Source: Kipferlia bialata (lineage: Eukaryota; Fornicata). From it: 35,224 nucleotides of DNA. Positions 51-35,224 of this stretch are shown piece by piece (within the stretch, counting starts at the first letter, position 1; every line of letters starts with the position of its first letter). The DNA lies in the NCBI GenBank assembly GCA_003568945.1, contig BDIP01000060.1, positions 1 through 35,224 of the forward strand, given 5' to 3'. A program made the translations under genes and the position numbers. The notes beneath the pieces are model-generated. The model saw only the letters and a program-made list of their open reading frames with translations. It was not told the DNA's origin and searched no databases.

Positions 51-99
51 CTTCTTCTCTCTACTGCCCTGGTACCACCTCAACACGATGTTTTTGGTA

Positions 100-134
100 C
101 TACACCCTTTGGAGTTTTTGTCTCTACACCCTTT
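100..134 (+). promoter_or_regulatory. Promoter element of the RNF213-like gene (two CTACACCCTTT boxes)
   Basis: CTACACCCTTT occurs at 100-110 and again at 124-134, with AGTTTTTG between them at 113-120. The same CTACACCCTT box precedes the GKRP-like gene and the giant membrane-protein gene, and a near copy in the opposite direction precedes the kinesin exons. Distance from the second box to the chosen ATG at 238 is about 100 bases, similar to the other genes. The regulatory role is inferred from recurrence alone. Confidence 0.55.
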
Positions 135-237
135 CTTTGGTTCATTCACTTAAGATGAGTGACTAATCTCACCCCAGTGTAAGTTCCCCAGCGCTTGGAG
201 GGACTATGTATCTGAGGCTGACCAGTGCCATCCCTTC

Positions 238-3200
238 ATGTCAAAGAGGGACGGCCACCCCAACAGGTATTGACATACAAATTCTATTCCATGCTTTGTG
301 GGACAGTACGTCTTCCTTTGGTTCTACCTCCCTTCCCTTTTACTCACTCAGGTACATGCACCTGAAGCAGGCAGACATCTACTTGGGCTCTGTCAACAAA
401 CCCTCCACGTGGGCTCCTAAGCATGGTACAGGCGTCAGCAACGAGAGAGTAGCTGTGCTGGTGGCCACTGCCATGAGGTATGGTGACATATACTGATGTC
501 GGCCAGGACTCTATAAGGAGGAATCTACTTGCTTCACAGTGTACCCCAATGAGGTGTGATTTCAACGTTCCAGCACCTATCGTCTTACCTCAGGTGGTTC
601 TCCGACAGACGTGGACTGCGTGCCTGTATCAAGAGGCTGACCAAGAACAACGGCTACTTCACCTGTCCCTCCACCAGACCCGTCTTCCCACCCCCTCTCC
701 CCGGCATCCACGAGCACTACTCCATCTCGGATGCGTGTAGGGGTCTGGACATGGAGGGTGTGCCTGGAGCAGTGGCCAGAGCAGGGGTGTACCAGGGCTT
801 TGAGGCAGCGGACCTCTTTGCCGCCGAGACACTACCTACATGTGACGCATATACTGCGATTGCGCTCTCAGACCGCAACACTCTCGCTGGTCTCTCTAGT
901 GTGTCAGCCTGTGGCCTCGCACTCTACGTCACTGTGGCGAACAGCAGGCGGCACTGGGGAAGCCAGTCGTATCTACTCGATGAGGTACTTTGACTTCTAT
1001 GTTCTCTATACACCTTGCTGTGTGCTGTCCATCCATACTTACGATTCAGGTCTCCAGGATGGTGTCCCTGCCTCGACTGGGTGAGATTCCAGACGACACT
1101 GCCACTGCCCTTGGTCTCCTTGTCGTCAAGTCCCGGCCTACCAGTACTCAGTCAATTCAAGTACTATCTGGACTCGTCAGTGTCGTGCCTGCATCATTCT
1201 GGTCTCCAATCATAGAGGTATATATCCTACTATTACACTGCTCCAGATATGATGCGTATTCACCCCATCACCAATCCCTTGCGTATTCTCCCTGGTGCAC
1301 AACTAACCCCAGCATTGGAGTAGCTGTGGGAGGGCCGCTGTTAACGCAGGGTTCTCCTTCGTGTCCTCCCTCCCTACTGCCGTGCATCCTGGCGAGTGTG
1401 CAGCCATTCTCGACATAGCAAGCAGATGTACCCTCTTTAGCCCTGGCTGGTCTCTCTCCCAGGTCCTCCAGAGACCAGCTCTCTGGGAAAGGTCGGGTGG
1501 CAGGATCCTACTCGATAGAATCCACTCGGTGCACGAGCTGACTCGCCTCAAGGAGAGGGTACCACTATCTCTGCTGGTGAGGCAGTCAGTGGAACCCACC
1601 AGCGTGCTTGGGCCCCTCTCCCGGCTCCTCACTGCTCTGAACCTGGGTAGTAGTGTGCCTGTCTTCACTGCCGCACTCGAGAGGCTGGCAGAGGCATCCT
1701 CCCTGCTACGTACTCTTCAGACCGAGCACCACGAGATAGCCTTACTTGGCGGTGTCTTCGCAGAGCCCCTTAAGGAGTGCGTCGACTCTCTCCAGGCTGC
1801 CCTAGTGCGGGCCCCTACGACCTCTGTAGTGGATGTACCCTCTCTGCTGGCCAGGACTCTCGAGCAGCTACGTGTTGTTGGTGAGTGTGCTGGGTCTCCT
1901 CTGTTCAGATACCTGATGGCACACCCTCAGCAGATAGGGATTGGCATACCTCCTGAAGTAGATGATGATGGTGTAGAGACCCCCGAAACTGAGGGCAGCA
2001 TTCCAGATGAGGGGGAGGAGGAAGACGCCACCCTAGAGGTACAGCCAGAGCCACTGCTACCTCCACCCCCAGTGCCTGTCGTTGACGACCTCGTAGCTGT
2101 AGCCACTTGCGTCCAGGACGCCAACACCTCTCTCTTGAGCCGTGGTGTCGACACCAAGACCGCAGATATGCTGGCGAGAGTGCCTCTGTATACACTGGAG
2201 AGGCACGTGGACGCCATCTGCCCCAACACTAGGAGGGGTGTCGCAGACGCTGCTGACACCAAGGTGTATGTGCGGATCATCACCGCTATGCCGGTTCTCA
2301 GGCCCTTTGCCACGGCTCTACAGGAGACCATGAAGTGCGCTGGCAACCCTCTCTCCGACACCGACAAGGCCAGTGTGGATGGCATCATCGACCAGATCCA
2401 GGCCTTCCAGGAGGGCGGCATGACTCTGCCTCGTGGGCTGTCTACCCCTGTAGCCTCACACCTAGCAGCACTCTGCCGCACGCCAGAGAGCCTGGCCTTC
2501 TATCAGTGTGCGGCAGGCCCTGCCAAGCTGGGTATGGCCTTTGCAGCAGCACAGTCCGACTCTACGTCGCACCTTCTCAACCCACGGAGCAACAGGGGAG
2601 CCATCGTCCCCATCAAAGTCGTCTCTGACTTTACGTGGCTGATTGCAGACGCCGCGTCCCCCATGTTTCTCCTCAAGAGTGACAGGCCTCTGGAGGAGAA
2701 GCTGCAGCAGTTGGCTGGCATTGACTACGGGAAGAGCAGAGAGAACCTGGTGTCTGTGGACCAGAACCACGAGAACCTGAAGAAGTTCATTCTTGCTAGC
2801 CAGGGGTCTGGCCAGGAGGGGCTGAACTACGATGCTGGCTTCATTCTCAAGCAGGGGTGAGTATATGCACTATATACTCTATTCTGTTGATGCAGTGTTG
2901 TGACTAGTGACTATCCATCTGTTATGGTTCTATGAAGACACCAAGACTAATCATCCATTGACCTTCAGCTTTGTCATGACACTGAGTGGGGAGGGGCCTC
3001 AGATCACTGTCGGCAAGGACAAGACAGCGCAGAAGTGGGACGTGCATGACCTACAGTTGCTGAAGAACCAGGTACTTTTCCTATGAGACCACACATATTC
3101 ATTCAGAGTGTAGTATTTGTGTGTCATGCCGAACGTTAACCTCAGATCATCTTCAGTACCAGTGACGACCCTGCGCCCAAGCTGTTGGTCCTGCTCTTAA

Positions 3201-6200
3201 GTACGTGTCATATGTAGCTAGCATCTATATATATGATACATAAGACCATCATATTGACTCTTACCATCAGGGACTGCCCAAGAGATATGCGCTAAGGAGG
3301 CCAGCACCCTGCAGTCTCTCACGGGACACGATGTCACTAGGAGTGTGCAGTTCGCTCCCTGTGAGGCAGACGAGGCCCTGGCAGAGGGTATGCTGCAACA
3401 ACTGAAGGAGGTGCGAGGGTTGATAGCAGACGAGATCGCTAACCAGAGCCTGATCGCTCAAGAAGTGCGTAGGGATGAGACTTGTGCCTATATGACCACC
3501 AGAGACATACTCTCCCAGGAGACAGAGATGGGGAGGAGGATCCACACTCTGCACTTTGCAGATATCGAGAGGTTTCAAGTCAACCCAATCAGCAACCCTG
3601 TCCCGCTGAAGGCCTCTACTGTCAGCTCTGTAAAGGTCACGGCCAGTACCGTTCTCGACACTGTCCAGGCCCTCTGCCGATCAGCACAGAGGCCTGTTCT
3701 CAGTGTGCGTAACGTGCACCTTGGCAGCGCCGAGTCCACTATCGAGGACATCAAGGCCCTTGTCGCTCATGCGGCTGCCTTTCCCAATGTGTGTCATGTG
3801 GTGGCCCTACCATGTCAGATGCCACAGGGTGTCCAGGCCCAGATGCGGCAGTACCTTCTTGGTACTGAGGCCCCACTGCCTAACAGCTTTGGACCCATTG
3901 TCCTCTGTGACGTGACAGGTAGTACGGCCACTTCGTTCCCTGCCCTTGTAGTGGATAGGGCCTGTATTGACAGCCTTGTCCCTCTCAAGGCGGCAGAGGC
4001 CAAGATCAGACCTGCATTCCTGGTCACCAGTGCCCAGGCCGGCCAGGGCAAGACCACACTTGCCATGCAGCACCTAGGCCCAGACCCCCTCCACCTACAC
4101 GTCTCTGGCCCTGCCAAGTACTCCACGCTCTGTCAGTCGATAGCAAGACAGCTACCTGACTCGACCGCTGGCGTTGATCTCCACATCGATGTTGGTAGGC
4201 CACTGGGAGACGGAAAGTATACCTCAGGGCAGTGGGTAGCAGAGAGTGCTGTGTTCTCCCTACGCTGGCTGGGTGGCCTAAGGGGACCAGGTATAGTGGT
4301 GCCTACTCCTCTGAGACTAGCAGTAGAGGTGGCCTCCGACATATACCCCCAGGCCGCTGTCTACTCAGGCATTATGGGATGCCCGGCAACAGAGCTTAGG
4401 TTTCCAACTACCTGCAGTCAGTTTGTAGCGGAGTACCGAGTGACAGAGGCGTCAGCACAGGCATATGAAGCTGCGTGTGCACTATATATCCTAGCCCACA
4501 ACAAGGATAAGAAGGTTATGGGTGCCGACCAGAAGGACGAGGAGGACGCCCCTTGTGACGTCTCAGCTCTGGTACACTCCCTACACCCTGCAAGTGGCAG
4601 CGACCCAACCCCTGTCCTTAAGTACGCCTATGAGCAGATAAGCAAGGGTAGTGACAGCCTGTCGTGGTCGGCGGTCACTGGCGTCCTGGTCTGTCTTCAC
4701 CCAACACTGATGCGTCTCGGGCGGTGTCCCCATATTAATGAGTTGGGGGACAATGTTGCCGAAGACCGGGACGCTTTGGCCGCTAGGGCTGAGGTAGTTA
4801 CCAGGGCTGTTGACTTTGCCAAGCAGTACCATGTCAAGGCAGTCTCCCAGAGTGTACAGTGTCAACGGACAGTGATTGAGAACGGCACCAGGGAGACTGG
4901 TGCTGTAAAGGAGGTCCAGAACGAGCATCAGGTCGGTTATGCCAATCTCAAGTCCACCTACATCACTCTGGATGCCGGTGACGGTCTTCTTGTGTTCAGT
5001 AACTCTGGATTTGAGTGGCCACCTGCCTTCAAGGCACTTCTGAAGCAAAGGGGCGCCAAGCCATCGACAACTGACAAGTTGACATCCGCTCAGCGGAAGG
5101 TTCTGATGGCCGAGTACTGTATCGGACCTGATGCTGCCAACAAGTGCGCTGGGTTCCAGTCGAGCGTAGCAGGGTTCGAGTACCGTTCCGATGCCGCTTT
5201 CAAGATGAGTATGCTCCACGCTAGAGTGTCCCAGGGTCTCCCTGTTGTCCTGATAGGTGACGGTGGCACAGGCAAGACAGCACTTGTCACCACCTATCTA
5301 GAGATGAGGGCGGCTCTCTCTGCTGAGGGTACCTTCGAGTACAAGGCATCCACCGTCAATGCTGCCACCTCTGAGACCGATATTGAGGCACTGTTCTCAG
5401 CTGCTTGTGCGAAAGCGGCAGAGGAGCACTTAGCCGACTACCAGTATGTTCTCTTCTTCGATGAGATCAACGCCTCTCCCCACAGTACAGAGATCATGGC
5501 AGGCGTACTCTCTGGGAAGTTCAGGGGGACCTCACTACCCCCATGCGTTAGCGTCGTTATGGCCGTCAACCCCCTCCGCACCTGCCACAAGGAGAATGCT
5601 ATGCTGCGTAGCATGACGCACAAGGTCCCCTACGTGTTCAGAGTCAACCCTATGCCTGAGTCTATGCTGCAGTGCATGATAGACTTCGGGGGTCTTGCTG
5701 CTGAGGTAGGACTGATGGACGTCAGTATGTGATACATAGTACACTGCATACTCTCCAAACTCTGCTCATATCCAGGACGAGAAGGACTATGTCCTCGAGA
5801 TGCTGAAGACCGCTGCAGCTGCTAACCCCACTCTTGGTATTGACGACCGCCTCATTCAGAAGGTGGTAGCCACACATCAGGCTGCCAAGGAGAAGTCCAG
5901 AGGATACTCGTTCTCTGTCTCCCTCAGGTAGGTGCCCCCATAATACATATATCTTTTGATTGTCCTTAATCTCAGGGATATCAACAGATTCGTCAGCCTC
6001 CTGAAGGTTGCTAGAGTGGTCTTTGCCCCAATGGTCGAGGACAGGAGAGGAAGTGCCTCTGAAGTCGAGGCATTTGTTCTACACCTCACCTATGTGCTCC
6101 GCATTCCTGATCCGGCTAGCAGGCGTGGAGTAGTGTCTAAGATAGGTGGAGAGACAGGGGTGGGTCTGTGTCAGGCAGAGTGTATGGGCTGGCTGGATGA

Positions 6201-9200
6201 GGCAGCAGGAGCCGGCAAGACATCTGACGTCACTGGTATGGTTGTCGCTAGAAACAGAGCCTACTCTGAGAACGCCCCTGCCCTACTGATGTGTATATGG
6301 GCCAAGGTATTGATAGTGTGCACAACCATACATACATATTACATCTCCCGATACTGTCACTGACCCAGGTTCCGATCATCATCATTGGAGAGCCCGGTAC
6401 CTCCAAGTCCCTAGCCTTGAGGGTCTGCTATGAGTTCCTAGCGTCCGCCAAGAGCCACGAGGTCTTCCCCACCAGGGTATTGGAGACAGTCTATCAGGGC
6501 ACCACACAGAGTACCTCAAGTGGTGTACAGAGAGTGCACAGAGAGGTGCTGGCCAACGTTCCCAAGGTACTGTAGTGGTCTGTATCGCCACCTCTATTGC
6601 GTGACTAATGTGTGCACTTACCTCCAGGATGGGTCATCAAAGATCACTTCCATGTTCGTCTTTGATGAGCTTGGCCGTGCTGCCCAGGCCCCAGGCAACC
6701 CCCTCAAGGCTCTGCACTCTATCCTGGAGCCACACGGTGGCCAAGAGAACCTGACATTTGCCTTTGTAGGACTCTCCAACCACAGCGTAGACTCTGCACC
6801 CACATCCAGGGCACTGGTGGTATACAGGTAGGACCATGTATTAGGAAGGGTCCTGCTTGTCTTACAAGTAGTGTATATCAACTGTGGGCTGTAGTGTTAG
6901 ACTCCATTTACAACCAGGCTCGGGACCAATGATGGTCTCGCAACCACTGTACGTGACATTCTGCACAAGCGTGTCACCACCCACCAAGCGGAAGCACTGG
7001 CTTCGGCACATAACGCCTTGGTAGCCAAAATGAACACAGAACTGGAGAAAGGTGTCGGCAAGTCATATTTTGGACTCAGGTAGGGTGTGACGATTGTATA
7101 GTGTTCTTTTGTGGTGCTGATCTTCACTGACCTTCAGAGACGTCTTCTTCCTTGCCCACCGTGCTCTCTCTGAGGGTAACGTTGGTATAGGCGACCCCCA
7201 GACTAGGGCTGCCACCCTTGTCGCCAGGTGCTACAGCATAGGATACGCCAGCGAGAACACCCGCCTCTGCCAGCAGATGGTCGATGCCACTCACAGCATA
7301 TTGGCAAGCCTAAACCAGGAAGCTGAGTGTGGCCCCCCCAAGCCCCGTCTAACCTGGAGGGGATGGGGTAGGTACGCGGGTTACAGGCGCAGGGCAGATA
7401 CTGACAGGTGCACAGCCTACCAGGCTCTCAAGGACGCCTTGCAGGACACCCATGAGTGTGCTAGGTGGGTAGTATATTCGTGGATAGGGGTTCGACCTCC
7501 ACTCTGTTTGCAGAAGGAGCTAAGTGTGTTGGCTACCGCTCTATAGATGAGCAATGTACTGTTGACCTCAGGTACCTCCTTGTGCAGACTGAGTCCCCTG
7601 AGTTGATAGTAGACACTATCCTGAAGGAGGGTAGAGACCTGCTGGGTGCAGATAGGGGTATCGAGGTTCTGAGTGGGTCGCACTTCAGGGGAGACTCTGA
7701 CGTCGCTACCTCCATTCAGACCCTCTCTGCCCTCATTGAGGGAGCAAGAACCGGCAAGTGAGTTCAATACGTGTATAACTACATAATAGTTTCAATGATG
7801 TTGCTAATGTTCAGGCTAGTTGTACTGCTCCACCAGCAGCGTGTGCTAGACTGTCTGTACGATATGCTCAACAAGAACTATGCCCGTTTCAGCAACGGTG
7901 GCGTGACAACCATGAGATGCAGGTTCGAATCCCTCCCTCTCTCTCTTTCGATACATATCTGCCAGCATCTAACATTCAGGGTATCCCTCGGTAACTGTGC
8001 CGACAGCTTCGTTCCAGTCGCCCCTACCTTTAAGCTTGTCATCTGTCTGTCTGCCACTGAGGTAGCTGCAGAGGAGCCTGCTCTACTGCAGAGACTGGAG
8101 AAGGTCAGGCTGGACATACAGGATATGGGGTCTGTCGCAGAGGGAGCCAAGGCACTGCTGCAGCAGCCATCCAACTCCAAGGCTCTTCGGGAGGTAGTCA
8201 AGGCGGTGCCGAGACTGGGGTCTCTAGCAGAGGTGCACGATGGTTTGCTTTGGCTGCACTCCACAGATGGACAGACAGGGGAGGAGACTAACGGTCACAC
8301 TGCCAGTATCCTTGAGCTGGGCGCCTACTTAGTGTCACCCACCTTGCTCCTCACCCACACCCTTCGTGCCGCAGAGATGCGTTCCGGTCATAGACAGAGC
8401 AGGTCTCCACTCCTTGATGGATCTATGTTCCATGGGTGCGTGGACGTCCTGGACTTTGTCCAGAAGCTGCTGAGGGAGAGAAATGGGGGTGCCTTTACCC
8501 TAGGTGGCGTGCCCGTTGCCCTCTATCGCAGTGGTGTTGGCAGCATAGGGGGATCTGTCGACAACCTTGTTGATGCCGCAAGGGCAGCAGGGATATCCGT
8601 GACCCCACTTGTCGTGTCTGTCTATGAGAAGCAGAAGGACTTCAAGAACGCCGTTGCGCAGGTACCCCAGGGTGATGTCGTGCTGTGCCACTTGGGTTCT
8701 ATGACAGAGTTCATACCCCAGTGCCAGTCCATTTTGATGAAGAGAGAGGGACTGAGTGTGATAGCTGTCGATAACACCACTGATACCAACTCTATCAGGG
8801 TTGGTGTTGCCTCAGGAGTGTGTGTGGTGGACTGCCTGATCAAGCCCCAGCACCTACCCATTGAGTTCAACCCGATGCCGGTGTTGACTCTCTCCCTCAC
8901 GGACACGCCTACTGCTGCCGCAGATCATGCTGATCTACAGCTGAAGGGTCTCATAGAGGTATCTCTACAGAGAGGCCTACACGCTGCGCTATCTACAGTG
9001 GCGGCAGGAGGTGATGTAAAGCTGAGTCCAGAGAGGGCTAGAGACCTCTCGAGGTTTGTGTCCAGCCACGCTGACAAGCTGGCGTCTCTCTCCCTCAACC
9101 ATGTGAAGGCTCAGCTGCTGGCGCGGTACGGCTCTAGAGGTATCCTCAGTTCAACAACACTGGGTCTATACACCTCAGTGGTGCAGGCCACTGACGAAGT

Positions 9201-12200
9201 GCTGATGGCCGCTACCTGTGAGGCTCTGGTTCCTGTTCTGAGGCTCCTTGCCTGCCGGGGTCTTCTTGACGGGTACCTGGATGAGGACCCAGCCTCAGAC
9301 GCAGCACAAGGCTACGCTGCTGCGGTACTGGCACAGATAGGAGGGCTGACTGTGAGGGAGTACCATGGCGAGATAGTCAGGCACCCACAAGACATGGCAG
9401 ATGTGACAGCTGAGCAGATACGTGCGGCACACTTCCAAGAGGCAGAGACACGTCACACACTGGCACCACTTGTCGAGTGCGACATGTCAACCACACCAAC
9501 ACTGCTGATACACGCTGTTAGGACTACTCTCCTTGGGTCTCTCAACCTGCCAGAGAACATTGCTTCCCTCACTGACGCTGTGCAGTACACTGTCAGTGTA
9601 GCAGTGGAGGCACTCGCAGAGAGCTACCAGGAGGAGGTTTCCAGGGACGCACTCCTAGTCCTCTGCAAGGTGGCTCTCTCACAGCTCTCCCTTGCTGCAC
9701 TAAGGGTGTCCTCTCATGGGCTCTCTGGTGCAGTCAGTGCTGCTAGTCATGCACTGGAGGGCATGTCCCAAGACGCAGATGCATTTGGGTGTCTGTCACA
9801 GATGCTGGTCAGTGGCATAACCTACATGGGCTGTGAGTACTCCAGATTCGACCACACTACTCCTTCTGGGGCCATGGCACTTAGTACGTCACCTGCGGAG
9901 CTAAACGATGCGGTGGTGAGGTCTCTACCCGATGCCACTCTGAGTCAGCGCCTAGCCTTCATGCCAATCGGTGAGGTTGGTGATGAGAGCTACATGAGTG
10001 TGTGTGCCACAACATCCCCCGAGAGTTCTGACACTGCCGCCTGTCATGTCTTCACAGCCAGACTATGTGGGGAGGTTGGTGTGCGGAGTCTCCTGTCGGA
10101 TATCAGAGTGGTTGATGCTGGGCTGTCTGTCATGATTACCCATCACGCAGAGCAGGTGATCAGTACCGACACCACAGTGCTACTTGGTGCTGGAACCACC
10201 CACAATGACATCCTGTCTCGTGTTGCTGGTGTCCTGCTAGGAAACACACTCACAGTTGGATGGTCAGTGGCAGCTGCAGTGTTTAGAGTCATTGCTAAGC
10301 AGGCCAGTAGTGACACGGGGAGTGACCTACCTGCAGCAGCCCTAGCCACACTCTTCAACTCTAGCAGACTGTGTCAGATGGCATTTGTATGGCACTGCAG
10401 ACAGGGGAGAGAGAACGACACAGAGTGGGTGGAGACACGGGTAACGGCAGTGCTTGGGGAAGTTGTTGCATCCACTATCTTTGTCGGTAGCTATGTGGAG
10501 AGGTACCCTCTAACAGGGCTTGTTGACTGGGCCTTGCACTCTAGGCCTGCATTTGGGATAGGGTCTACCGGGGTAGACAACCCTGTGGCGCTCTTCAGGA
10601 GACAACTTGTCACAGCTACGAGCAGCGGAGACACCAACACAGGTCCTGATGATCTCACTGCACTTCATGACGATATAGGTCTTGAGGGTATTGCCCTCAT
10701 AGGTGAATTGGCAGGTTGGGACACTACAGCACCCGGCAGTCTAGTACATGCTGTATCAAGCAACCCCTCCAACCACCTGTTGCCCTTCGAGTGGCTGAAG
10801 GCTGAGTATGCCTTCTTTGCCACTGCATATAAGGAGGTGTCGGGGTCCTCTATCTATCTCTGGCGCTGCCCATGTGGGGGTATCCTGTTTGTAGGGGACT
10901 GTGGAAGAAACTCACACAACGTAGCTGGTGGCTTTGGGTTCCGAAAGTGTGACAGGTGCAACGTCAACCAAGCTGAGGCAACGTGTACAAGAGTGGCTCA
11001 CGGAACAGCACCTAGTGCCACTCGTGTAGCCAACAGTGTCTTCTACACGGGTGTGGAGAGAGGTTTCGTTGCCAACAAAGACACGGTGCCGCCTTGCGAT
11101 GGATCATTCGCGTTCACCTCCCACATGCGATCACACGTCCAGGAGACCATCTTCGTCAGATGTGTGCTGGCGGCTCTGCACCTCAAGGAGAGGTTACGGA
11201 GTGGGACCCTTGGGGCCCTCTCCGAGGAGGAAAGAGAGGTACTGGTGGGGCGTGTCAACATGGGTGTCGCTAGGATTGGAGACAAGCTTCTACCTCTTGT
11301 CAGGCGCACTGCTGACACCATACTGGGTCTGCCTGCCACAACTGATGTGTGTGCCAGGTTTGCCCAGGAGACAAGGCTGTGTCAGACCCTTCGGCTCTCA
11401 GATGCAGCAGCCCCCGTACACCCACCTGCTGCAGATACTGATGCCCCTGCGTTCCCTCTCACTGCCGCCCATGCAGTTTCTGCTGGCCTTGACACCAAGT
11501 ACGTATCACTACTGCAGCCCCAGACCCCAGCTCAGATAGTGCTGGGTGAGGCCTCTGCCGCACACAGAGGGGGACGGTACATGGAGACACAGGAGCAGGC
11601 TGCGGCGTGGTGTGAGGCCCTTCGTGTACTGCCACAGGTGCTCTCTCTTCCTAGGGTGGTGTTCCAGCCACTGAGGTACACCGCTCTCACTGCCTCACAG
11701 GCGGTGCTGGACCAGCCTCTACAGTCTGTGCTTCACAGCGTTGGGGCTGATGTGCCTGCTGCAAAGACAGCAGTGGATGCATGGAACACAGTGTCTCTCG
11801 CCTTCTTCACAGAGCACTTCCCATTCGTCGATGACTGTCATTCTGTGGAACTGAGAGATATCGACTGGGATGACATTAGCTTTGGAGAGTTTATGGCCTT
11901 TTGCTCTGACTGCGCCATCCCGGCTCAGGACCCGACTACCGACCAACCTACACGTACCACTGTCAGCAGTGTACTACGTGAGATGGTTCGTGTGCACAAT
12001 GCCATTGCACAGGCTATTGTACAGGAACTCGGTATCCAGGGAGTGACCCTGGAGACTGTCGGTGTGTCTGGATTCTCCATCCGCAACACCCCCTCAGTAC
12101 TGGATGTGTACTCGTTGGATGGAGTACCAGCCCTCTCCCGTGAGGCATCGGTGCTACTCTCCGGCACCCGTGTTCTGTCTGCCCTCCCCTCGCTTGTTCT

Positions 12201-12870
12201 CATAGATGATGCAGAAGCAGCCCTGGAGATCAAGAGGTCAGGGGGCACTGGCAGCCTGCAGTGGGTACAGAACTATGAGGGGTATGATGACATCCCACGG
12301 CATGTGCCTTTCCTCCGGTGCGAGGAGAGCATAGATGCCATGCCAGTGGAATCCATAGGAAGGGCTGTTGCCGCTTGTTCTGCGGTGCAGGATGCCGTGT
12401 CTACCCTAGCTAGCCCTGAGGACGGATCAACATCTCTGAGGGCGTTCCTGGAGAGATGGGGAGTGTCACAGCATGTCACAGTACTGAGTGAGCACAACCT
12501 CTTGGGAGTGGAGGTACGGCAGGTACTGAGACTGACGTACGCCCTACAGGTCCGGCTAGGGTGGGAGAGCATCAGTACCAGGATTATGGAGGGAGTGAGA
12601 GCCAGGAGGCAATGGTCTCTCTCTGCCTCTCAGGCGGCAACTGTGGGTGCTCTCACAAGGGATGAGAGGGAGAGACTAGAGGGCATGGTCAAGGTGGTGT
12701 CACACCGCATGGACAGGAAAGAGATCCACAAGGGAATGCCTGGCCCTAGTGACACATACTGCACTACATACGAGCAGACAGAGGCGGGCGAGGCAGTGTG
12801 TGGGGTCCTTGATTCAGTATCTGTAATCGCACTAGTCATGCACTTTACTGGGATAGAGGGAGTGTATTAG
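238..12870 (+). CDS. RNF213 (mysterin)-family giant AAA+ ATPase with RZ-type zinc finger
   Basis: Model: 238-266, 352-477, 594-984, 1050-1217, 1313-2856, 2969-3071, 3146-3200, 3271-5720, 5776-5927, 5976-6306, 6369-6566, 6628-6827, 6918-7079, 7138-7464, 7572-7757, 7815-7922, 7980-12870; about 3,806 aa in one continuous frame. Dynein-like AAA+ core: a first P-loop AQAGQGKTTL near aa 1060, a second GDGGTGKTAL near 1466 with Walker B FFDEIN near 1532 and the VNPLR sensor, and a third GEPGTSKSL near 1788 with Walker B VFDELGRA and VGLSNHSVD. RNF213 landmarks follow in order: VSLRDINRF, YFGLRDVFF, RYLLVQTE, LVVLLHQQRVLDCLYDMLN. Near aa 3136 is an RZ-type finger (CPCGGILFVGDCG, then CDRC). No RING was found. 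Family members act in ubiquitylation, lipid droplets and pathogen defence. The first 700 aa are unrecognised. The start codon is chosen because ATG 238 is the only in-frame ATG before the exon-2 junction. A further in-frame intron at about 7372-7407 is possible. Confidence 0.9.
10858..10962 (+). other. RZ-type zinc finger segment with an altered metal-ligand set
   Basis: Within the last exon of the RNF213-like gene, the protein reads WRCPCGGILFVGDCGRN, then a longer linker, then KCDRCN. The usual RNF213/ZNFX1 RZ pattern is W-x-C-P-x-GH-x(2)-[FYV]-x-[IV]-G-x-CG followed by CPxC. Here the GH pair is GG, an extra Cys stands two residues after the first Cys, and the loop before the last Cys pair is longer. 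In vertebrate RNF213 the RZ finger is reported to carry the E3 activity and its histidine is important, so the zinc site or chemistry may differ here. Confidence 0.75.
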
Positions 12871-13642
12871 GTGCTAGACCAACGTTAGTTTGGACAGAAG
12901 AGATATCTGTAAATAATAGATAATATCTATAATAGACTATTATGGTCTGGGGGCAGGCATGGGTGAGATGAATAGATACATAATTATTGAACGTCGATAG
13001 AGAGGTGTATATGCAAAAGAAGACAGGTCACGAGGCCAGAGTATATATTCTCACTAGACAATTTGTGTCTAATAGTGTATCAAACTATAGTCTCTGCATG
13101 GGTGTTACGAGGATAATGCAGCACTGTGCCCTCACTAAGAGGATACATGAGGCAGCTAATCGCAAACCTTCAGCACTGGCTCCAGCTGTCCGCCACTGAA
13201 TCATACTCAGTATACTCCACTAAGAAGAAGGATTGCTACGCCAGGACTGTCTGAAATGACCCTCGTGGTGCTTGAGATTCGTCAGACCCGCAGTGTCCAC
13301 CATATTCGCCCGAAATAAGGTGAGAGACAAGGATCCTGGTGCCACTTGCAATGAGCTGACCTGCGAATAAGGATCTTTAGTGGGTCCATGTCTCACTCGA
13401 AGCAGCAGAGCCAGAGAGAGAGAGAGAGACGATTCATTGGAGCGAACCCTTTCTAGCCATGGAAGACGAGTATACCAGGTGGGCATGCCTTCGCAGGGTT
13501 GTTGGTGCCTATGATGTGCACATGTCCACGTACTTCTGACATAGACACCTGACCAGTCTGAGGCAGACTTTGTGTAAGACTCTAGGAAGACCCATCTATA
13601 CAGAGAGTGAGGAGCATCCTTTCTTACCGGCATGATGTGCCC
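12871..13642. other. Convergent intergenic spacer
   Basis: This lies between the stop of the RNF213-like gene (plus) and the stop of the Kelch-like gene (minus). It contains an AT-rich part (12890-13000), a short GA repeat (about 13411-13429) and a 137-codon open frame on the minus strand starting 10 bases after the Kelch-like stop. That frame has no recognisable domain and part of it is the translated GA repeat, so it is more likely 3' untranslated sequence. No tRNA or other RNA gene was recognised. Confidence 0.5.
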
Positions 13643-15748
13643 TTATTCTCTCCTGGGGACGCTGTACCCCCACTTCATGTCTGGGTGGGGGTAAAACACC
13701 TTAGGCTGGAACTGACACACGGAAGTGCGGTTGTGGGCCCCAGCTGAGTCAGAATATTAGTAGTATATTGTCTGAATACATAGTGTACACTCCTGCTGAG
13801 TCAGAATAACAATAATAGAGAGAGAGAGAGGTTTCGATGGTACTTTCCTTTAGAAATAGTCCGCTTTGCAGAATCATAAGTTATGATTCTGCAACATGTG
13901 AGTGTATGGTTATCCGACAAAGCTGAATATCATATATAGTCATATATATAGTGTGTGTGTGTGTACATATAGTGTACATATAATCACTACACATATAGTG
14001 TATTTATAGTGTATATATAGTGTACATATAGTGTGTAGTATATACTTAGTGTATATATAGTGTGTATGTAGTACATATATATTGTGTACCAGTATATATG
14101 TATACATATACTAGACCTAGCACTTAAAACTACCTATAAGGGCCGTGTTCTCGTTCTGCATCACGCCATGGGGGCTGAAAATCTCTCCTTCCCACTCTTT
14201 CCACACCTCGACAACCCCGCACACTGTGTCAAATGCAACAACCATCGACCTGCCTGAGGTTAAGACACCATGACTTCTAGAGTGATTCTACTTGAATCAG
14301 ATTGAGAAGCAGATAGACGACATTCCTCATACCTGGTATTGAAGAATAATAGAGAGAATTAGAGAGAGAGAAGAGAGAGAGAGAGAGACCTCTGACGCCT
14401 ATGACTATGTACTGCCCCACAGCGAGGGCTGCTCCGGGGCAAAGGCAGTACCGACAGATAGGGAGGAGAGCACTAGGTACCGCTATGTCACCCTCCACTA
14501 CCCACCCTCTGGCCTTGCGGAATGTGATGTGGCGGGGATCCCTGTCCACACTGCTATTAATATATATATATATATAACTATATATATATATATATATATG
14601 ACTAGTTAGCAGAGAATGAGGTGGAATCCAGCGTAATCCTTGACCTAGGAGAGGATATGTACATTCTCTTGATTGCCAATTATATAGTCAACTATCTTCA
14701 GTATCAGTACCTGATGAAGTGCACTGTGTCTCCCATCAGCGCATGTGCGTATTCAAAGAGTGGCGCGGGGCTATCGGCAAGTGGGGTGAACCCACCACTC
14801 AAGGGGTCTAGCATCCAGGCCTTCTTGCCACTCCTCTTTGGGGTCCATCCTCCTATGTAGAAACCCTCACAGACAAGAACCTGAGGGGGTGGATGGATAT
14901 ACGAGAATATAGTCTATTATATATAGATGTGTCAAACTATGGAGTAAGAGAGAGAGAGAGAGAACATGATACCTCTCCCTCCAGCGCTACCAATGGACCC
15001 CAGTGATGCTCGATGCCGTCTTGCTCTCTCTCGGATGGGTCAGTGGGTGTCATGTAGTCTATTCTGCCTGGTGCACATCGCCCTGCCAGTGTGCTCTGTC
15101 TACCCTCAGTATCAGCATCAGTAACAACATCTTCAGTATCAGTATCAGCATGAGTAACAACATCTTCAGTATCAGTACCTTGCCGGCGCCCTCTCCCTCT
15201 AACCAAGTGCATAGGTCACACCCGAGGAAAGTGTGTGTCTTGGTGCTATATCCCACAAGAATGCCCTATGATTAGTTACTTAACACAGGAGGTATCACGT
15301 AGGTGTTCCATACTTGAACCTCAGGTACCCCTAAGCCCCAACATAGGTAGCAAGTGTGTTACCTGTGGTAGTACCGCATTCTCTTTGTCTACACCCTCTA
15401 GCGGCCCTGGAGAGTCGCCCAATAGAGGTGCACCGGAATAGTCGAGCTTGGCCTTGAAAGAACCAGACTCATCCTCCTGCCTATCACTCAAAGACATGAA
15501 TCTGCTACAGTCCTATTAGGCAGGATGTGTGGATATACGTATACATACATATACTTAGTATAGTTGAGCCTTTCTAGTGTATCTATACACACATACTTGT
15601 ACCTCTGTCGTGACACCTACTACTTGGGGAGTCTTAGGGCCCCTCGAGGGTCTACTGAAGTACTTGTTCTCACTTGGGGCCGTGTATACCGCATTCCTAT
15701 ACAGCTGAAGGCGGGGGAGCAGAGTAAAGCCAATCTCGCTGGTCTCAA
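13643..15748 (-). CDS. Kelch-like beta-propeller protein, 5' end uncertain
   Basis: Minus-strand exons: 15748-15603, 15476-15363, 15265-15179, 15095-14973, 14880-14711, 14541-14390, 14253-14134, 13743-13643. They join in one frame to a TAA stop, about 336 aa. Kelch-like blades are seen from their spacing: ILVGYSTKTHTF; then FYIGGWTPKRSGKKAWMLDP followed by LADSPAP; then GWVVEGDIAVP, AVGQYIVIGVRG, and VVAFDTVCGVVEVWKEW. The double-Gly, aromatic and Trp positions fit degenerate Kelch motifs, which usually form protein-binding propellers. The C-terminus is SVPRRE. The start is not settled: an ATG at 15497 lies in frame just upstream of the second exon, and the first exon opens next to a CT/GA repeat. 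No CTACACCCTT-type promoter box was seen upstream. A fusion with the kinesin exons is possible but the junction crosses the G/A tract. The exon chain is well supported; the Kelch call is moderate. Confidence 0.6.
13929..14112. repeat. AT-rich minisatellite (ATATAGTGTAC-like units) in an intron
   Basis: Loose tandem copies of ATATAGTGTA(C/T) and TATATAGTGTGTA fill the long last intron of the Kelch-like gene (13744-14133). Units vary in length, so this is a degenerate minisatellite rather than a clean microsatellite. It makes this intron, at about 390 bases, the longest supported one in the window. Confidence 0.7.
14559..14599. repeat. (TA)n microsatellite
   Basis: Two runs of TA, separated by an AAC interruption, lie inside an intron of the minus-strand Kelch-like gene, close to the 3' splice site of the exon starting at 14541. 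Confidence 0.9.
15108..15178. repeat. Two-copy intronic tandem repeat
   Basis: CAGTATCAG..AACAACATCTT is repeated twice, with a third partial copy ending at the intron's 5' splice site on the minus strand. Unit length is about 33 bases. It fills most of the intron 15178-15096 of the Kelch-like gene. One frame stays open across it (a TDTEDVVT-like repeat), so retention as coding sequence cannot be excluded. Confidence 0.65.
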
Positions 15749-15751
15749 CTG

Positions 15752-15833
15752 CTCTCTCTCTCTCTCCCATCCTCTCCCTCTCTCCCTCTCTCTCCCCCAT
15801 CCTCTCCCTCTCCCTCTCTCTCCGTGTCTCTCC
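15752..15833. repeat. CT/GA-rich low-complexity tract
   Basis: CTCTCTCC-type sequence about 80 bases long lies just upstream (minus strand) of the first Kelch-like exon. On the minus strand it translates as Arg-Glu repeats in the frame of that exon, but an intronic polypurine tract is more likely. Confidence 0.8.
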
Positions 15834-16035
15834 GTGTGGCAAGATTGACGATTCCTGGTGTTAGGAAAAGACACATGCTACTGAAGTAGTTTCAATCATG
15901 TCACATACCACTCTATCTCTATATATACTTCCAAAATGGATACATGTCAGAGTATGATTGCTGTCAGTGCCAGTGTCCATAAAGAAACTGGTGGTGTTAC
16001 ATCTATGAGATGTTGTGACACGGTAAGAGAGAACA

Positions 16036-16125
16036 CGGGGGGGGAGAGAGGGTATAGAGAGGGAGAGGGGGGGGAGAGGGAGACGGGGGCGGGGGGGGGG
16101 GGGGGGGGAAAAAAAAAAAGGGGGG

Positions 16126-16161
<36 letters not shown>
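16036..16161. repeat. Long G/A homopolymer tract, possible assembly junction
   Basis: From 16036 the plus strand becomes G-rich, with G runs around 16060-16080. From 16085 to 16161 it is nearly pure G, interrupted by a C and by an A10-11 run around 16109-16119. Homopolymers like this are a known artefact of some short-read chemistries and of gap filling. Here the tract separates three kinesin exons from a Kelch-like gene without a visible promoter, which strengthens the suspicion. Confidence 0.85.
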
Positions 16162-16163
<2 letters not shown>

Positions 16164-16293
16164 TGTATTCTAGTAACCCAGCCCAGCCACATGTCCTCCT
16201 ATGACGGAATACACACATAGTAACACAAAAAGAGACATAATGATTAACACAATATGGATGTGAGTGTATTGACTTATATACAATACCCTGTAC

Positions 16294-16647
16294 CTGGTAC
16301 ATGTCCTCCTGGGATGCATCTGTCATGACCTTGTCCAGCGTGAAGTGCATCGTCTTGGCATGGTGGTCCAGATACTCAGCCTTCCTAGGTATTAGTGCAT
16401 ATATATATATATGACTGTGTACACATAGACCAAGTGTTACCTGCCCAGCTCCACATTGACAGTCTTGCCATCGGACACAGTCACCTGGCAGTCAGTCCCC
16501 AATCAAAATACACATACATCAGAGCATATCAGGTGTCTCATATGCATACAACATGCAGAATGTGGACAGTCGTACCTGGTCATTTGCATTGCTCGTGGGG
16601 CGCAGACGCACGAACACATTCACAGTGCTCTGCTTAGACCCGCCCAT
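16294..16647 (-). CDS. Kinesin motor, N-terminal fragment (three exons)
   Basis: Exons on the minus strand: 16647-16576, 16484-16441, 16384-16294, joined in one frame. The protein begins MGGSKQSTVNVFVRLRPT, the first strand of a kinesin motor domain (V-x-V-x-V-R-x-RP). It continues through TVNVELGRK to FTLDKVMTDASQEDMYQ, the conserved F-x-[FL]-D-x-V-x-x-x-x-[ST]Q-x-x-[VM]Y block. Residue choice is closest in memory to kinesin-9 (KIF6/KIF9), flagellar motors, but 70 residues are too few to be certain. The next expected block, with the GQTGxGKT P-loop, was not found before the G/A tract, so about 80% of the motor is missing from this locus. Introns end in CTGACTGCCAG and CTAATACCTAG, matching the window's 3' splice-site style. 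The gene is divergent from the GKRP-like gene. Confidence 0.78.
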
Positions 16648-16752
16648 AATAGTACTTACTGGCCTCTCTCTGGCACAGGGGGTGTATGGGAGTGCAGGGG
16701 GACGGTAGAAGCAGTGAATGACAGCACGAGAGAGAAATCCTTGTTTTTTGGC

Positions 16753-16802
16753 CTACACCCTTCACCGAGTGTTTTTGAGGTCTTGGCAAAAGAGGGTGTA
16801 GG
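16753..16802. promoter_or_regulatory. Divergent promoter elements between kinesin and GKRP-like gene
   Basis: CTACACCCTT lies on the plus strand at 16753-16762, and CCTACACCCTCT reads on the minus strand at 16802-16791. Between them is TTTTTGAGG (16772-16780), which read on the other strand is CCTCAAAAA. The plus box is about 96 bases from the GKRP-like ATG and the minus box about 145 bases from the kinesin ATG. The shared core and face-to-face layout in a 200-base spacer suggest a bidirectional promoter. Confidence 0.6.
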
Positions 16803-16848
16803 CCCTGGATCAGTATATAGCTTCTACTCGCCTGGCCTTGTGTGCACT

Positions 16849-17347
16849 ATGGGGCTCAGGATCACCGAGCAGCGCAACCCCATTACGGATGACATAGATA
16901 TAGTGACCCCAGCTGAGATTTTCCGGTTACTTGGGAAGGTGAGGGACTGGTGATAATTGGTACATAGGTGCATCTGATACTGTGTTGTCTTACTGCACCA
17001 CAAGTGTATTCAGTGCTCAATATCTTCGCTTGGAAGAAGTATTCGTGCTAGCGAGTAGCACTCGTTGTGTGCAAGAGCACCATCTCTATTACGACCTGGT
17101 GTATCCACCCCCCATATCTTGACTCTAGGTCTCTGATGGTCTTGTTACCTCTCTATACATATACATATGGATATATACATACACACCAAATACCCATTCC
17201 CTCACGCTGCATTGACCCGCCCTGCCCCTGACTGTCAGGTTGATGCCCAGCTCTATGCCTCCCCCTCCCTGGCTGACCCTGGGGTCAGGGCCAGTATCCA
17301 GAGGGTGGCAGACTGGGTGGCAGAGCAGGGGGAGGATGGGAAGGTAT

Positions 17348-17393
<46 letters not shown>

Positions 17394-20300
17394 ACGTGGA
17401 TGTGTCTGCACATGTCGCATGGAAAGGCATGACCCACTGGCTGCTTGGTCTCTCTCTCTCTCTCTCTCCCCCTCCCCCCCAGCCTGTGTCTGTGACCATG
17501 GGTGGGGCCGGCACCAGTGGCAGGCTGGCATACTTCGTAGCAAGGTATATTTTCTCTAGGTTTCTCTGATCTATATTTTCACCTCCTCTCTTTCTGACCC
17601 AAAGGGCCTGCCTTCTTCCAGCCTTCTCTCTCTCCCTCTCATTCTGCTATCCTTCACCTAGCATCTCTGTCTACTATAAGAGTATGTATATGCCCTGACC
17701 CCCAGGTGTCTTACCGAGAGACTGGCTGGTACCGACGCTGCACCCTCCCTCTCCTTCCACTACCTGATAGCAGGGGGGGACAGGGCACTCGTCAGGGCTC
17801 AGGTACGGGTTGTGTATGTATATACATATATACTCTATGCATGTACACTAGTATACACCCCCCCCCCCAGGAGAGTGCCGAGGACAGCAGTGTCCTGGCA
17901 GTCCAGGACTATGCCAGGGTGGCAGCAGGCCCAGCGGCAAAGGCATACATCGGAATATCAGCAGGTGTGCTACTTAGATATATACTATATATATACTTAC
18001 TGGCCCTAACCCCTAGGCATGAGTGCCCCCTACGTGTCTTCTCTCTCTCTCTCTCTCTCTCTCTTTATGTATATATATATGTGTGTATATATATACTAGC
18101 ACTAACCCCTAGGCATGAGTGCCCCCTACGTGGCTGTGCAGGCTGTGGAGGCCATGCACCAAGGGGAGGGGGAGATACCAACACCTAGACATGTGTGCAT
18201 ATTCGGATGCAACCCTCCATCCCAGGTAGGCATAGATGTTAGTATACATGTATGTGCTGTATATCTACAGTGTGCACACCCCTCAGCCCTCACCCCTCCA
18301 GGCCAGGGCCATGCCCATCGAGTACCTGAGGACAGAGGGTGGGGAGGAGAGGGGGTTCAGAGACATCCTGCAGGAGCTGCTGACCCTCTCCCCCTCCCCC
18401 TCCCTCTCCTCCTCTGTCATCAACCCCATTGTCGCACCGGAGGGTATCGCAGGCAGCAGTAGGATGAAGGTGAGTATACATATAGATATATACTTGCTGC
18501 TGTTTGTATACTATCCCTCACTCTGCCAGGGCGGCACCTCGACCCTCATTGCCATGTATGCCGCCCTTCTCCCCCCTGTGCTACAGAGGCTAGGGGGTGC
18601 CGAGGCCTCAGTCACCTCAGAGCATGTGCTGGACGCTGTGGAGAGGGGGGTGGGTGCACTCTATGCGGCAGAGGGACATGCAGATGCCATGGCCACTCTG
18701 ATAGAGGGGGCAGCTGAGGCCCTGGCAGGAGGTATCCCTCACTCATAGATATGATATGGATTACAGTCACCCCCCAATCCCAGACCACTCCATCGTGTAC
18801 TGCTGTGAGGACATTGACGACTCAATCGTGGCATTTATCGACGCAAGGTACTCTATGTGTGTGTGTATAGCTACCGTCATTGTTTCTTTACAATACAGAT
18901 GTATGTATATCCATGGTGTTTGTGGATGTATTTGATTGATGACTGCTTCATTTCAGATTCATATACGCCATGTATAGATACAATTCTTTCAGGTTCGCAA
19001 TGTGCGTCGCATACATGCATACATAATCCATATTGATACCCCCTAGAGGGTACCCTCCACGTGTAGAAGTTGGTGTCATATGGATGTGGTCATTCATTCT
19101 ATATTCCATCACTCGCTCACCGCCAGCGAGTGCCCCCCCACCTTTGGCAGTGGGTGGCATGACGTCAAGTGCCTGATAGAGGGTGGGTGGGACAGGGTGC
19201 TGGAGGGCATGGGAAAGACAGAGGCAGAGAGAGACGGGCTCAGGGACTACCACCCGCTCAGGTACAGTCCAGTATTGATACTCCTCTACACTTCACTGTA
19301 TCTATGATTGATATGTATACTTTAGTAATAGTGGTAATTAGTGGAGTGTATGTATAAGTATCTCACCCTAGGTACACGTCTGGCGATGTCGAGGGAGAGA
19401 CCGCCTCCGTGTCAGAGGGAGACCTGGTGATACTGATACCACAGGTAGATATGTCCATATGCATCTAGGCCATCCTCAACCGATACTGACACCAGACCCC
19501 TGGGTGGGTCCCCCAGTGGCTGAGGGAGAGGCGCAGCACTGAGGCTGGCAGGAGTGAGTCCCTCTCTGTTGTGTCTCTGGAGATAGGTGTTGACACTGAC
19601 ATGGATGTGAGGGTATCGGTCAGGGCAGGTGCAGGAGGCGATACCCCCAGCGTGTGCTGCCCACCCCCCTCTGCCCTGTCTGCTGTGGTCAGACATGTCT
19701 GCACCAAGCTGTGCCTCAATGCTATCACGACAGGGGCACACATATGCCGCGGCAAGACACTAGGTGGGACACACAAACATACATACCTCACACGCAATCT
19801 CTCTCTCATTCCAGGCAACCGCATGATCGACCTATCTGTCTCCAACAGTAAGCTGTATGTGCGTGCCTGCAACCTGATCACTGAGATAGTGGGGGGGGCA
19901 GGCCTGACCCTTGGGGATGGCGAGGCAGAGGCAGCCCTGCTCAGAAGCATATACATCACAGACAACATCGAGGTGGGGGTCAACATTGGCCTACATACCA
20001 CATTTGTCATGCCCTCTCTCTCCTCCTATCGTTGGACCAACCTCATGCTGTCTCCCTCTCTCTCTTCTCCCCTCCAGCCCATGCTCTCCCTACCAGTGGA
20101 GGACCACATTGCTAAGGCAGTGCGCATGCACAAGGTATAGTGCCCAACCACTACATGTTATTCATTGTGAAGTGAGTATATACACTCTGTTGTCTGTCAC
20201 TATTTACTAGATTGGATAGTTAGTCCACAGGCTTTCTGCATAATGCCGTATTCCATAATACATATAGGAAGAATGGTTAATGGAGGATAGTGGGTGAATT

Positions 20301-20514
20301 AGTATGCTATAGTACTCATCACAGGTTCTCTTTGATTTCCTCTGTGTATGCACTCTCCACTTCACCACTTCACTGACACCAGGTCCTCCCCGTTGCGGTG
20401 TGTCTAGCCCTTCTGCAGGCCAAGGGAGAGACTGTGTCTGTGCAGGGGGTCAGAGACACCATACTCACAGAGCCAGTGGTCAGAAACGCAGTCAAGGCGC
20501 TTATGAAGCACTAA
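16849..20514 (+). CDS. GCKR-like: Glucokinase regulatory protein (GKRP)-like double SIS-domain protein
   Basis: Fifteen exons: 16849-16938, 17239-17343, 17483-17544, 17706-17802, 17871-17964, 18113-18225, 18302-18469, 18530-18731, 18784-18847, 19127-19261, 19372-19444, 19517-19763, 19815-19972, 20078-20134, 20383-20514; 598 aa, close to human GKRP (625). The N-terminus ITEQRNPITDDID is the family start. First SIS domain: GGAGTSGRLAY, HYLIAGGDRALVRAQESAEDS, ISAGMSAP, then NPIVAPEGIAGSSRMKGGTS. Second SIS domain: IVAFIDASECPPTFG with DVKCLI; then LNAITTGAHICRGKTLGNRM, IDLSVSNSK, and the C-terminal helical lid VLPVAVCLALLQAK. Sugar-phosphate-contacting positions known in GKRP (the Ser of GTSGR, the Ser of the SAP motif, Glu of ESAEDS, Lys of SNSK) are kept. 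In animals GKRP binds fructose phosphates and inhibits glucokinase. The bacterial relative MurQ is an etherase with a single SIS domain. Whether this protein regulates a kinase is not shown. Confidence 0.93.
17349..17391. repeat. (CT)n microsatellite in intron 2 of the GKRP-like gene
   Basis: About 21 CT units begin six bases after the 5' splice site at 17343/17344. A shorter CT run (17452-17468) precedes the 3' splice site of the same intron. Confidence 0.95.
18006..18132. repeat. 31-base direct duplication spanning an intron/exon boundary
   Basis: CTAACCCCTAGGCATGAGTG and the following CCCCCTACGTG occur identically at 18006-18036 and 18102-18132, separated by (CT)n and (TA)n. The second copy is the true 3' splice site and exon start (GMSAPYV). 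The first is a decoy inside the intron with the same branch site, AG and first coding bases. Confidence 0.9.
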
Positions 20515-20702
20515 AGACTCGATTGTGTGTATTGTGTGTTTAAAGGTCATGGCTTGAATAATTGTATTTGGGCTAAAGAGAGACCGAGTATACCATTTCA
20601 AAATGGAGCTATCATCCATCTCGTGCTCCTTCTCAGTGAGTGAGAAGCCATCCACCAGAATCTGGCGATCCCTGGAGTGTAGGGAGAAGGATGCTGCCAC
20701 AG

Positions 20703-20722
20703 CTACACCCTTCTCTCAAAAA
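20703..20722 (+). promoter_or_regulatory. Promoter element of the giant membrane-protein gene
   Basis: CTACACCCTT at 20703-20712 is followed by CTCAAAAA at 20715-20722, about 80 bases before the ATG at 20782. It is the same bipartite pattern as upstream of the other genes. It also lies about 190 bases beyond the GKRP-like stop, so the spacer 20515-20781 is essentially terminator plus promoter. Confidence 0.6.
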
Positions 20723-20781
20723 TCCCTACACGCTCCAATCATGACTTGACAAGTGAGACTTCTCCTCTCAGTATTCAGAAG

Positions 20782-31144: not shown

Positions 31145-32221
31145 GGTGTAGCAGGGACTGGTTACTTCAGTCAGTGAGTGTGTGAGAGAATTAGTAAATT
31201 GTGTGTATTGTGTGTCTTTCGGAGAGACAATGGTTGCCATTTCTGGAACCTAGTTATAGGTGTATAAGAAGTCTTTGTGTCTCTTCCTAGGTGACCTCCG
31301 ATTGATAGTAGCCAACCGAGCTTCGAAGCGGATTCCTTCGACAACGTAGAGTAACAGCAGTCTTTGAGGCAATTGTACCCTAATCCTTTGCTCAATATTT
31401 GAAGGTGGTATTGTATTGAGCAAATATTTGTGTTTTAGAAAGCTTGGTCCAGTAAACGTATCTCTGAAGAGAGTGAGCGCGTCAAACCCGAACTGTCGTC
31501 GAGTTTGCTTTGGGATTCTTAAGTTACAGCTCCATAGCCTCGGGCATAATGGCAAACACTCGAGATTCTATGAGTTACGGCTGCAGTCCCCATGTAATGA
31601 GTAACACCATTCAGTGAATAGCGTTATGAGGTATATGCAAACCGATGCTGGTGGCACACCTGGATAGGGAGGTGTCCGCACGCAACAAAACACGACCATC
31701 GACTGTCGCGCGACAGGTAGGGTGGGGGATGGCTACCAGAGAACAGAGGTACCACCTGGTACACACAGGCCAGCACTTGAAGCAGCTGGGAGTTCTCTCT
31801 TCTAACAAGAACTCTCAGTGAGAGTCTCTCACATATGTGTAGTTTGATATCTGATATTGGAATCCAATAATAGGATGCCAAGTAGACACACTTGGGCCAA
31901 GTAACTAGACGACTGCCGGAGCTATATAGTCCTCAAGTCAATAGCACTTCAGCACTGGTGTCCTTAGTAGTGAGTCACTACTAGTGACATGCCCCACAAT
32001 AGTTACAGTGATAGATCTTCATGGATGGAACCAAATGACTATAATAGAGACACAGAAATGCAAGTTGCATTATGCAACTGTTGTTTGCTTAAGCACTGCT
32101 TGAGTCTTTTGAACTCTTCTCCTTGGGGACAGCCATATACCTGCTTAGCTGTAGTTGTCAGAACTCCGCATGGAGAATGTATAGCAAATGCAGCTCATCA
32201 ACATAGTCCGGCCTACACCAT
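31145..32221. other. Convergent intergenic spacer
   Basis: This is about 1.1 kb between the stop of the membrane-protein gene (plus) and the PH-domain stop (minus). Open frames here are short, overlap on both strands and show no domain. A perfect 11-base inverted repeat is at 31387-31424. I recognised no tRNA, rRNA or known ncRNA. The length is large for this gene-dense window. Confidence 0.5.
31387..31424. repeat. Perfect 11-base inverted repeat (hairpin)
   Basis: TTTGCTCAATA at 31387-31397 pairs with TATTGAGCAAA at 31414-31424, leaving a 16-base loop. It lies in a gene-free stretch between converging genes. It could be a 3'-end structure or part of a small RNA, and no family was recognised. 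Confidence 0.7.
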
Positions 32222-34157: not shown

Positions 34158-35224
34158 CTGAAAGTGCGGATTTGGAGGTAACAACAATAATAATACACTG
34201 AAAGGTGGGGCCATCATGAGTAAGAGATACATGCTAAAGGGAAAGAGAGAGGGCCAAAAGGACAGAGAGAAGGACACATAGAAGATGAGGAGATGTAGTA
34301 TGCGGGGGAGGGGGGGGGGATAGAGAAATAGTGCTCTAGTATGAGAATGTCAGGGATAGAGTTGGTAAGGCGGTGGAAATACATTTCATGTTGTGTGAAA
34401 TGCCAGTGACACCAAGACCCAGGGCCAGACCCCTCACCCAATGCAATATATATATATATGCACGTTGCTTCTAACGCGAACAAACCACAAGGCTATGTAG
34501 GTATGGTAGTCTCCCAACATTGAGAGGTCAAATAACTATATCAGTACCATAGTATACTGACTGGTATGGCCATGCATGAGTCCTTGAAAGATCGTGATAT
34601 TACTGAAAGGAAGGAAACTATATTGACACCGATACCTTTTGGGACGTGTTTGTACCACTGGGGAAGCAAGGTCCCTTCCTTAGATCTAGACACGGAGATT
34701 TCAGTCCAAACTCTAGAAGGTTGCCAACATCAGGATCGGTCTGAGCAAAAAATGGAAAAGGGTCTAGGCTAGTCTTGGGAAGTCATATGTATGAATACTA
34801 CACAGATAAAGGCACCCTATACTGGACACATGGTGTTAGAAGGGTGTCCTGTTTCTAAGTGACCAGATACCTCATGAATCCGAAGATTGGAACAAAAATG
34901 AGCACAACATGGATAGCAACCGGATTCGGTGCAGTTTCGTCAAACTGAAACGTCCTGGCGTATCACATCCCTCTCACCATCTTAATGGTTGGCCCCTAGC
35001 ACTCTCCTGGTATCTATTCAGCTGATCGCATATGAGTCCTGTTAGAGTGAGTGATGTGTAATACGATAAGTGTGGAAGACACTCACACCGACAATTTAGG
35101 TGTCATTCACTCAACTGACATTTATGTCGGTACTACACTGCATGCTGCTAAATAGAGTACTTGACGGACTGCTGTGGTGGGACCTTGACATGAGCCTGGG
35201 TCAGGTGTTTGTGTGCTGAACCCT
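34158..35224. other. Right-hand end without a supported gene
   Basis: Contains a short (TA)n run (34445-34460), a G run (34303-34319), a 68-codon plus-strand ORF (34566-34772) without recognisable features, and ACACCCTT on the minus strand near 34856-34849. That last box could be the promoter of the minus-strand gene to its left. Nothing else is recognisable. Confidence 0.45.

Follow-up and report, generated by a model that had tools for sequence, protein, structure and literature searches.

Does the short box that recurs ahead of gene starts in this locus mark promoters, and is it a general promoter element or something narrower? A sequence-only reading had pointed to such a box, with a run of five T or A nearby, upstream of every gene whose start is visible, and had suggested that it may be the core promoter or initiator box of the lineage. 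The 35,224 nt analyzed here (hereafter the window) come from an intron-rich eukaryote and have a GC content of 53.6%. In intron density and GC content they would fit Kipferlia bialata as a tentative source: this free-living fornicate has 124,912 introns (PMC5874029) and a genomic GC content of 49.4%.

Genes and gene starts in the window

The following genes and start codons were considered:

238..240, plus strand: putative start codon of gene 1, a giant AAA/RZ-finger protein, possibly RNF213-like (both Pfam signals weak); the first exon runs into a continuous frame, and the start has no homology anchor
about 13.2-15.5 kb, minus strand: Kelch-like gene, named by eye (no Pfam match)
16645..16647, minus strand: start codon of the divergent kinesin-like gene, whose N-terminus begins MGGSKQSTVNVFVRLRPTS
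16849-20514, plus strand: GKRP-like gene, start codon at 16849..16851, with 15 exons and GT-AG introns in the splice model
20782-31144, plus strand: gene 4, surface-protein-like, start codon at 20782..20784, with a hydrophobic N-terminus (MRAALLLCLLILVFGTLYTSAS)
ending at 32224, minus strand: Rab-like gene

The GKRP-like gene matches glucokinase regulatory protein with E-values of 1e-29 (Pfam) and 2e-33 (PDB), and its start is anchored by homology, the PDB match beginning at residue 3-4. This protist gene encodes two SIS domains and a C-terminal lid domain. One of its intron-exon boundaries is tandemly duplicated over 50 bp (17990-18039 and 18086-18135, 90% identical), generating two candidate 3' splice sites. 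The N-terminus of the kinesin-like protein gave weak matches, the best of which in the PDB were KIF9 and another kinesin-like protein. Positions 1-237, preceding the ATG of gene 1, carry no coding signal. For the Kelch-like gene, the candidate start is at 15497 on the minus strand, in what may or may not be the first exon. The coding signal of the Rab-like gene is clear as far as about 34127, and its start may lie near 34231. Neither tRNA genes nor Rfam families were detected in the window, and searches with the giant, GKRP-like or Rab-like protein as query returned no relatives.

Two homopolymeric stretches, a poly-G with an internal A11 run at 16080-16165 and a poly-C run at 20-46, probably reflect assembly artefacts. 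Beside the poly-G, the kinesin-like gene is cut short, with no P-loop exon found, and the poly-G suggests that DNA was lost or misjoined near the Kelch-like start.

At the other end of the genes, a perfect 18-mer, ATTGTGTGTATTGTGTGT, occurs at 20522-20539 and 31198-31215, where it starts 8 and 54 nt past the stop codons of two adjacent genes on the plus strand. Just ahead of the second occurrence lies AGTAAAT, a match to the Giardia polyadenylation consensus AGTRAAY. The 18-mer, which follows neither gene 1 nor gene 5, may be a common 3'-end processing signal.

A box and a T/A tract ahead of gene starts

Three upstream regions (1-237, 16648-16848 and 20515-20781) together span 706 bp, or 2% of the window. 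They contain the following elements, with distances counted from the first base of the motif:

91..95, plus strand: T5 tract (TTTTTG), 4 nt ahead of copy A1
100..109, plus strand: CTACACCCTT, copy A1, 138 bp to the ATG at 238 (gene 1)
115..119, plus strand: T5 tract (TTTTTG), between copies A1 and A2
124..133, plus strand: CTACACCCTT, copy A2, 114 bp to the ATG at 238 (gene 1)
16744..16749, plus strand: T6 tract (TTTTTTG), 3 nt ahead of copy B+
16753..16762, plus strand: CTACACCCTT, copy B+, 96 bp to the ATG at 16849 (GKRP-like gene)
16772..16776, plus strand: T5 tract (TTTTTGAG), between copies B+ and B-
16791..16801, minus strand: CTACACCCTCT, copy B-, 154 bp to the ATG at 16647 (kinesin-like gene)
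20703..20712, plus strand: CTACACCCTT, copy C, 79 bp to the ATG at 20782 (gene 4)
20718..20722, plus strand: A5 tract (CTCAAAAA), after copy C
20726..20734, plus strand: CTACACGCT, a copy with one mismatch, beyond the A5 tract

Across the 35 kb there are exactly four occurrences of the 10-mer CTACACCCTT, each upstream of a gene. Its 9-nt form, CTACACCCT, is found seven times (at 100, 124, 4581, 15389, 16753 and 20703 on the plus strand, and at 16801-16793 on the minus strand) as compared with 0.85 expected, and none of 100 shuffled sequences reached this number. Two of the seven copies (4581 and 15389) fall within exons, the other five in the three upstream regions. The four sites originally listed upstream of genes were thus placed correctly to within a few bases, and the proposed spacing of about 80-150 bases before the start codon agrees with the measured 138, 114, 96, 154 and 79 bp (range 79-154 bp). 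Two details needed adjustment: the inverted copy, given as 16802-16791, is present, but the exact CTACACCCT spans 16801-16793, with CTACACCCTCT reaching 16791; and matches elsewhere do fall in coding exons, but the one given as 15386-15395 lies at 15389-15397 and the exon copy at 4581 had not been listed.

All five upstream copies point to the gene start that they precede; the kinesin-like and GKRP-like genes, which diverge, have one copy on each strand between them. There, copies B+ and B- form a 12-bp perfect inverted repeat (GGCCTACACCCT) within 16750-16804.

The proposed T5/A5 partner was also borne out, with a run lying within 30 bp of each of the five upstream copies (pairing p = 0.001, circular shift). 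The window contains 10 runs of at least five T or A, one of which, the poly-A inside the poly-G, is artefact-like; the remaining nine all read TTTTTG/CAAAAA, and five of them are located in the three upstream regions. Their total in the window is ordinary (8 expected under a Markov model), the unusual part being their placement: when the comparison is restricted to non-coding DNA, assumed to total 9-14 kb, the clustering still has a p-value of 3e-5 to 3e-4. In addition, two of the eight one-mismatch copies outside the three upstream regions pair with a T5/A5 run (p = 0.007), a test that is independent of the motif-defining sites since it uses only copies outside these regions. Box, tract and ATG keep no strict spacing, and the tract varies in side and orientation.

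The claim that every visible start carries the motif stands for the four starts that could be placed (4/4) and fails at the Kelch-like candidate start (15497, minus strand), which has no copy within 200 bp. For the Rab-like gene only degenerate copies were seen, at about 520-650 bp before the likely start of its coding sequence. Further candidate copies are:

34758..34767, minus strand: candidate copy CTAGACCCTT ahead of the Rab-like gene, with T6 (34752-34747) following it
21771..21794, plus strand: near-copy CTGCACCCTT with TTTTTG (tract at 21790), within what appears to be an intron of gene 4

The minus strand near the Rab-like gene reads CTAGACCCTTTT with a T6 tract at 34767, and also carries GGACACCCTT at 34849, after another T5 tract. 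If the first exon of this gene is untranslated, its promoter may lie near 34767/34849, which we take as a lead only. A second near-copy, also CTGCACCCTT, occurs at 21741 in the same apparent intron of gene 4, and the segment 21741-21794, with its near-copies CTGCACCCTTATG and TTTTTG tract, is possibly an internal promoter. Among viral contigs, the pattern TTTTTGN{2,4}CTACACCCTT gave 52 matches, not above the ~80 estimated by chance; one of the 52 loci had a second CTACACCCT, all had high ORF coverage, and none resembled the organism of the window.

A probable promoter role and its alternatives

Clustering before start codons, consistent orientation (5/5), a copy for each of the divergent genes and a recurring T5/A5 partner make a promoter role the best reading, and we assign a probability of roughly 0.6 to CTACACCCTT being a directional cis-element in the RNA polymerase II promoters of this intron-rich protist. 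The orientation of the copies, with one per strand between the divergent genes, speaks more for a directional promoter element than for an enhancer-like site. Together with its T- or A-run, CTACACCCTT is probably an undescribed promoter signal: in the open-access literature we found no description of it as a promoter element, and CTACACCCTT and TACACCC appeared only in unrelated contexts. Mechanistically, a sequence-specific DNA-binding factor would read the ACACCC core, the rigid TTTTTG/CAAAAA tract beside the box would help to exclude nucleosomes, and the two parts could position the pre-initiation complex such that transcription starts at the box or within about 100 bp downstream of it.

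Whether transcription would start within the box itself is a question on which we lean slightly towards a proximal upstream element rather than an initiator. The initiator alternative, in which transcription begins within CACCCTT(T), as at the Trichomonas CCTTT (M5), and generates leaders of 70-150 nt, is the least improbable of the rivals, though still unlikely. It would account for the directionality of the box and the single copy per direction at the divergent promoter, and CCTTT is contained in three of the six motif copies; but gene 1 has two tandem copies, M5 was sought no further than 20 nt from the ATG as compared with 79-154 bp here, and the leaders of other metamonads are very short. 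The putative leaders themselves, which would measure about 70-145 nt with transcription starting at the box, provide mild evidence that cuts both ways. Those of the kinesin-like (144 nt) and GKRP-like (86 nt) genes have no ATG, and all four together contain three ATGs as compared with about six expected, whereas the upstream ATGs in two of the four (genes 1 and 4) mildly favour start sites downstream of the motif. Very short leaders are characteristic of parasitic metamonads (PMC1805757; PMC7370421), and if the same holds here, the box is an upstream element and not an initiator.

A second question is how far the promoter element extends beyond this locus. The evidence comes from four neighbouring genes on one contig, from which the motif was itself chosen. 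The box could be a site for a gene- or regulon-specific transcription factor, common to these neighbours and absent from most genes; the adjacency of the four genes, the single examined locus and the lack of a copy at the Kelch-like candidate start all speak for this. We find this doubtful, since the functions of the genes are unrelated (an AAA/RZ-finger giant, a kinesin-like protein, a GKRP-like protein and a surface protein), making a general element the simpler explanation. For a general element, this single locus gives a mixed picture: all four placed starts and the orientation of all five copies fit, and the fifth candidate start has no copy. The suggestion of a core promoter or initiator survives in its promoter part, and four genes at one locus are too few to establish a core promoter of the lineage. 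That CTACACCCTT with its TTTTTG/CAAAAA tract is a genome-wide directional core promoter box, previously undescribed, in an intron-rich protist that is possibly a free-living fornicate, is a proposal we make tentatively, at somewhat short of even odds.

Could a short word shared by three regions simply have been spotted by chance? As the motif was picked after inspection, the appropriate test is for any non-repetitive 10-mer common to three random segments of the same lengths, and such a 10-mer was found in only 68 of 200,000 triplets of window segments (3.4e-4, 0.034%) and in none of 4000 triplets of Markov sequences. The excess of CTACACCCT across the window is not the top one among 9-mers, which together with the post hoc choice would leave room for coincidence; but the rarity of common 10-mers, the independently tested T5/A5 pairing of copies away from the three upstream regions (p = 0.007) and the consistent orientation of the copies render it improbable. 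An RNA element in the leaders is very improbable: the 12-bp inverted pair between the divergent genes would form a strong hairpin in either transcript (predicted RNA fold of 16750-16804, -29.1 kcal/mol, z -4.1), but inverted copies occur in only one of the three regions, the gene 1 copies being tandem and the second, degenerate copy of gene 4 having the same orientation, so that no comparable pairing arises, and a divergent pair of directional DNA sites accounts for the inversion.

Comparison with known promoter systems

Core promoters are poorly known outside animals, fungi and plants. The promoter element proposed here resembles the M5/Inr of Trichomonas vaginalis, also a metamonad, in being a short, pyrimidine-rich, directional element before start codons. 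In Trichomonas, M5 (CCTTT) sets the transcription start site, and the search for it covered the 20 nt next to the ATG (PMC7370421). The element differs from M5, which consists of CCTTT only and lies no more than about 20 nt from the ATG, in having the core CTACACCC at 79-154 bp and an accompanying T5/A5 tract; identity with M5 was rejected on these distances and because CCTTT is present in only three of six copies.

The CAAAAA box of Giardia, reportedly proposed by Holberton and Marshall, is similar in that a CAAAAA/TTTTTG tract lies upstream of genes. Its full form is CAAAAA followed by (A/T)(T/C)AGA(G/T)TC(C/T)GAA (PMC3792122); the tracts are present in the window, but by eye their flanks mismatch this extension. 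Genome-wide mapping of transcription start sites in Giardia identified an AT-rich initiator as the only conserved consensus (PMC3792122), and in Giardia muris there is reportedly no universal promoter motif beyond an A-rich sequence at the start codon (PMC7641422). An initiator of the Giardia type was also rejected, as the four leaders showed by eye no common A/T-rich run before the ATG. Unlike the window, Giardia has no reported CTACACCC element, and its leaders are very short.

Nucleosome-depleted promoters of yeast are marked by the Rap1 site ACACCCATACAT together with poly(dA.dT) (PMC522869), an arrangement similar to the ACACCC core adjoining a T/A homopolymer upstream of genes. Beyond ACACCC the sequences diverge, with more than two of the six following positions differing from ATACAT (by eye), and the Rap1 site is longer and found in subsets of genes only. 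The metazoan CACCC box (CCACACCCT), read by KLF/SP factors that are known from animals and their close relatives, is one base off CTACACCCT.

If the proposed element is real, a clear two-part signal would aid the prediction of start sites in a protist genome, provide a bait for the binding factor and make it possible to set the reduced promoters of parasitic relatives beside it. If used genome-wide, the element would reveal a promoter code unlike that of Giardia, whose promoters are motif-poor, and unlike the Inr/M5 code of Trichomonas.
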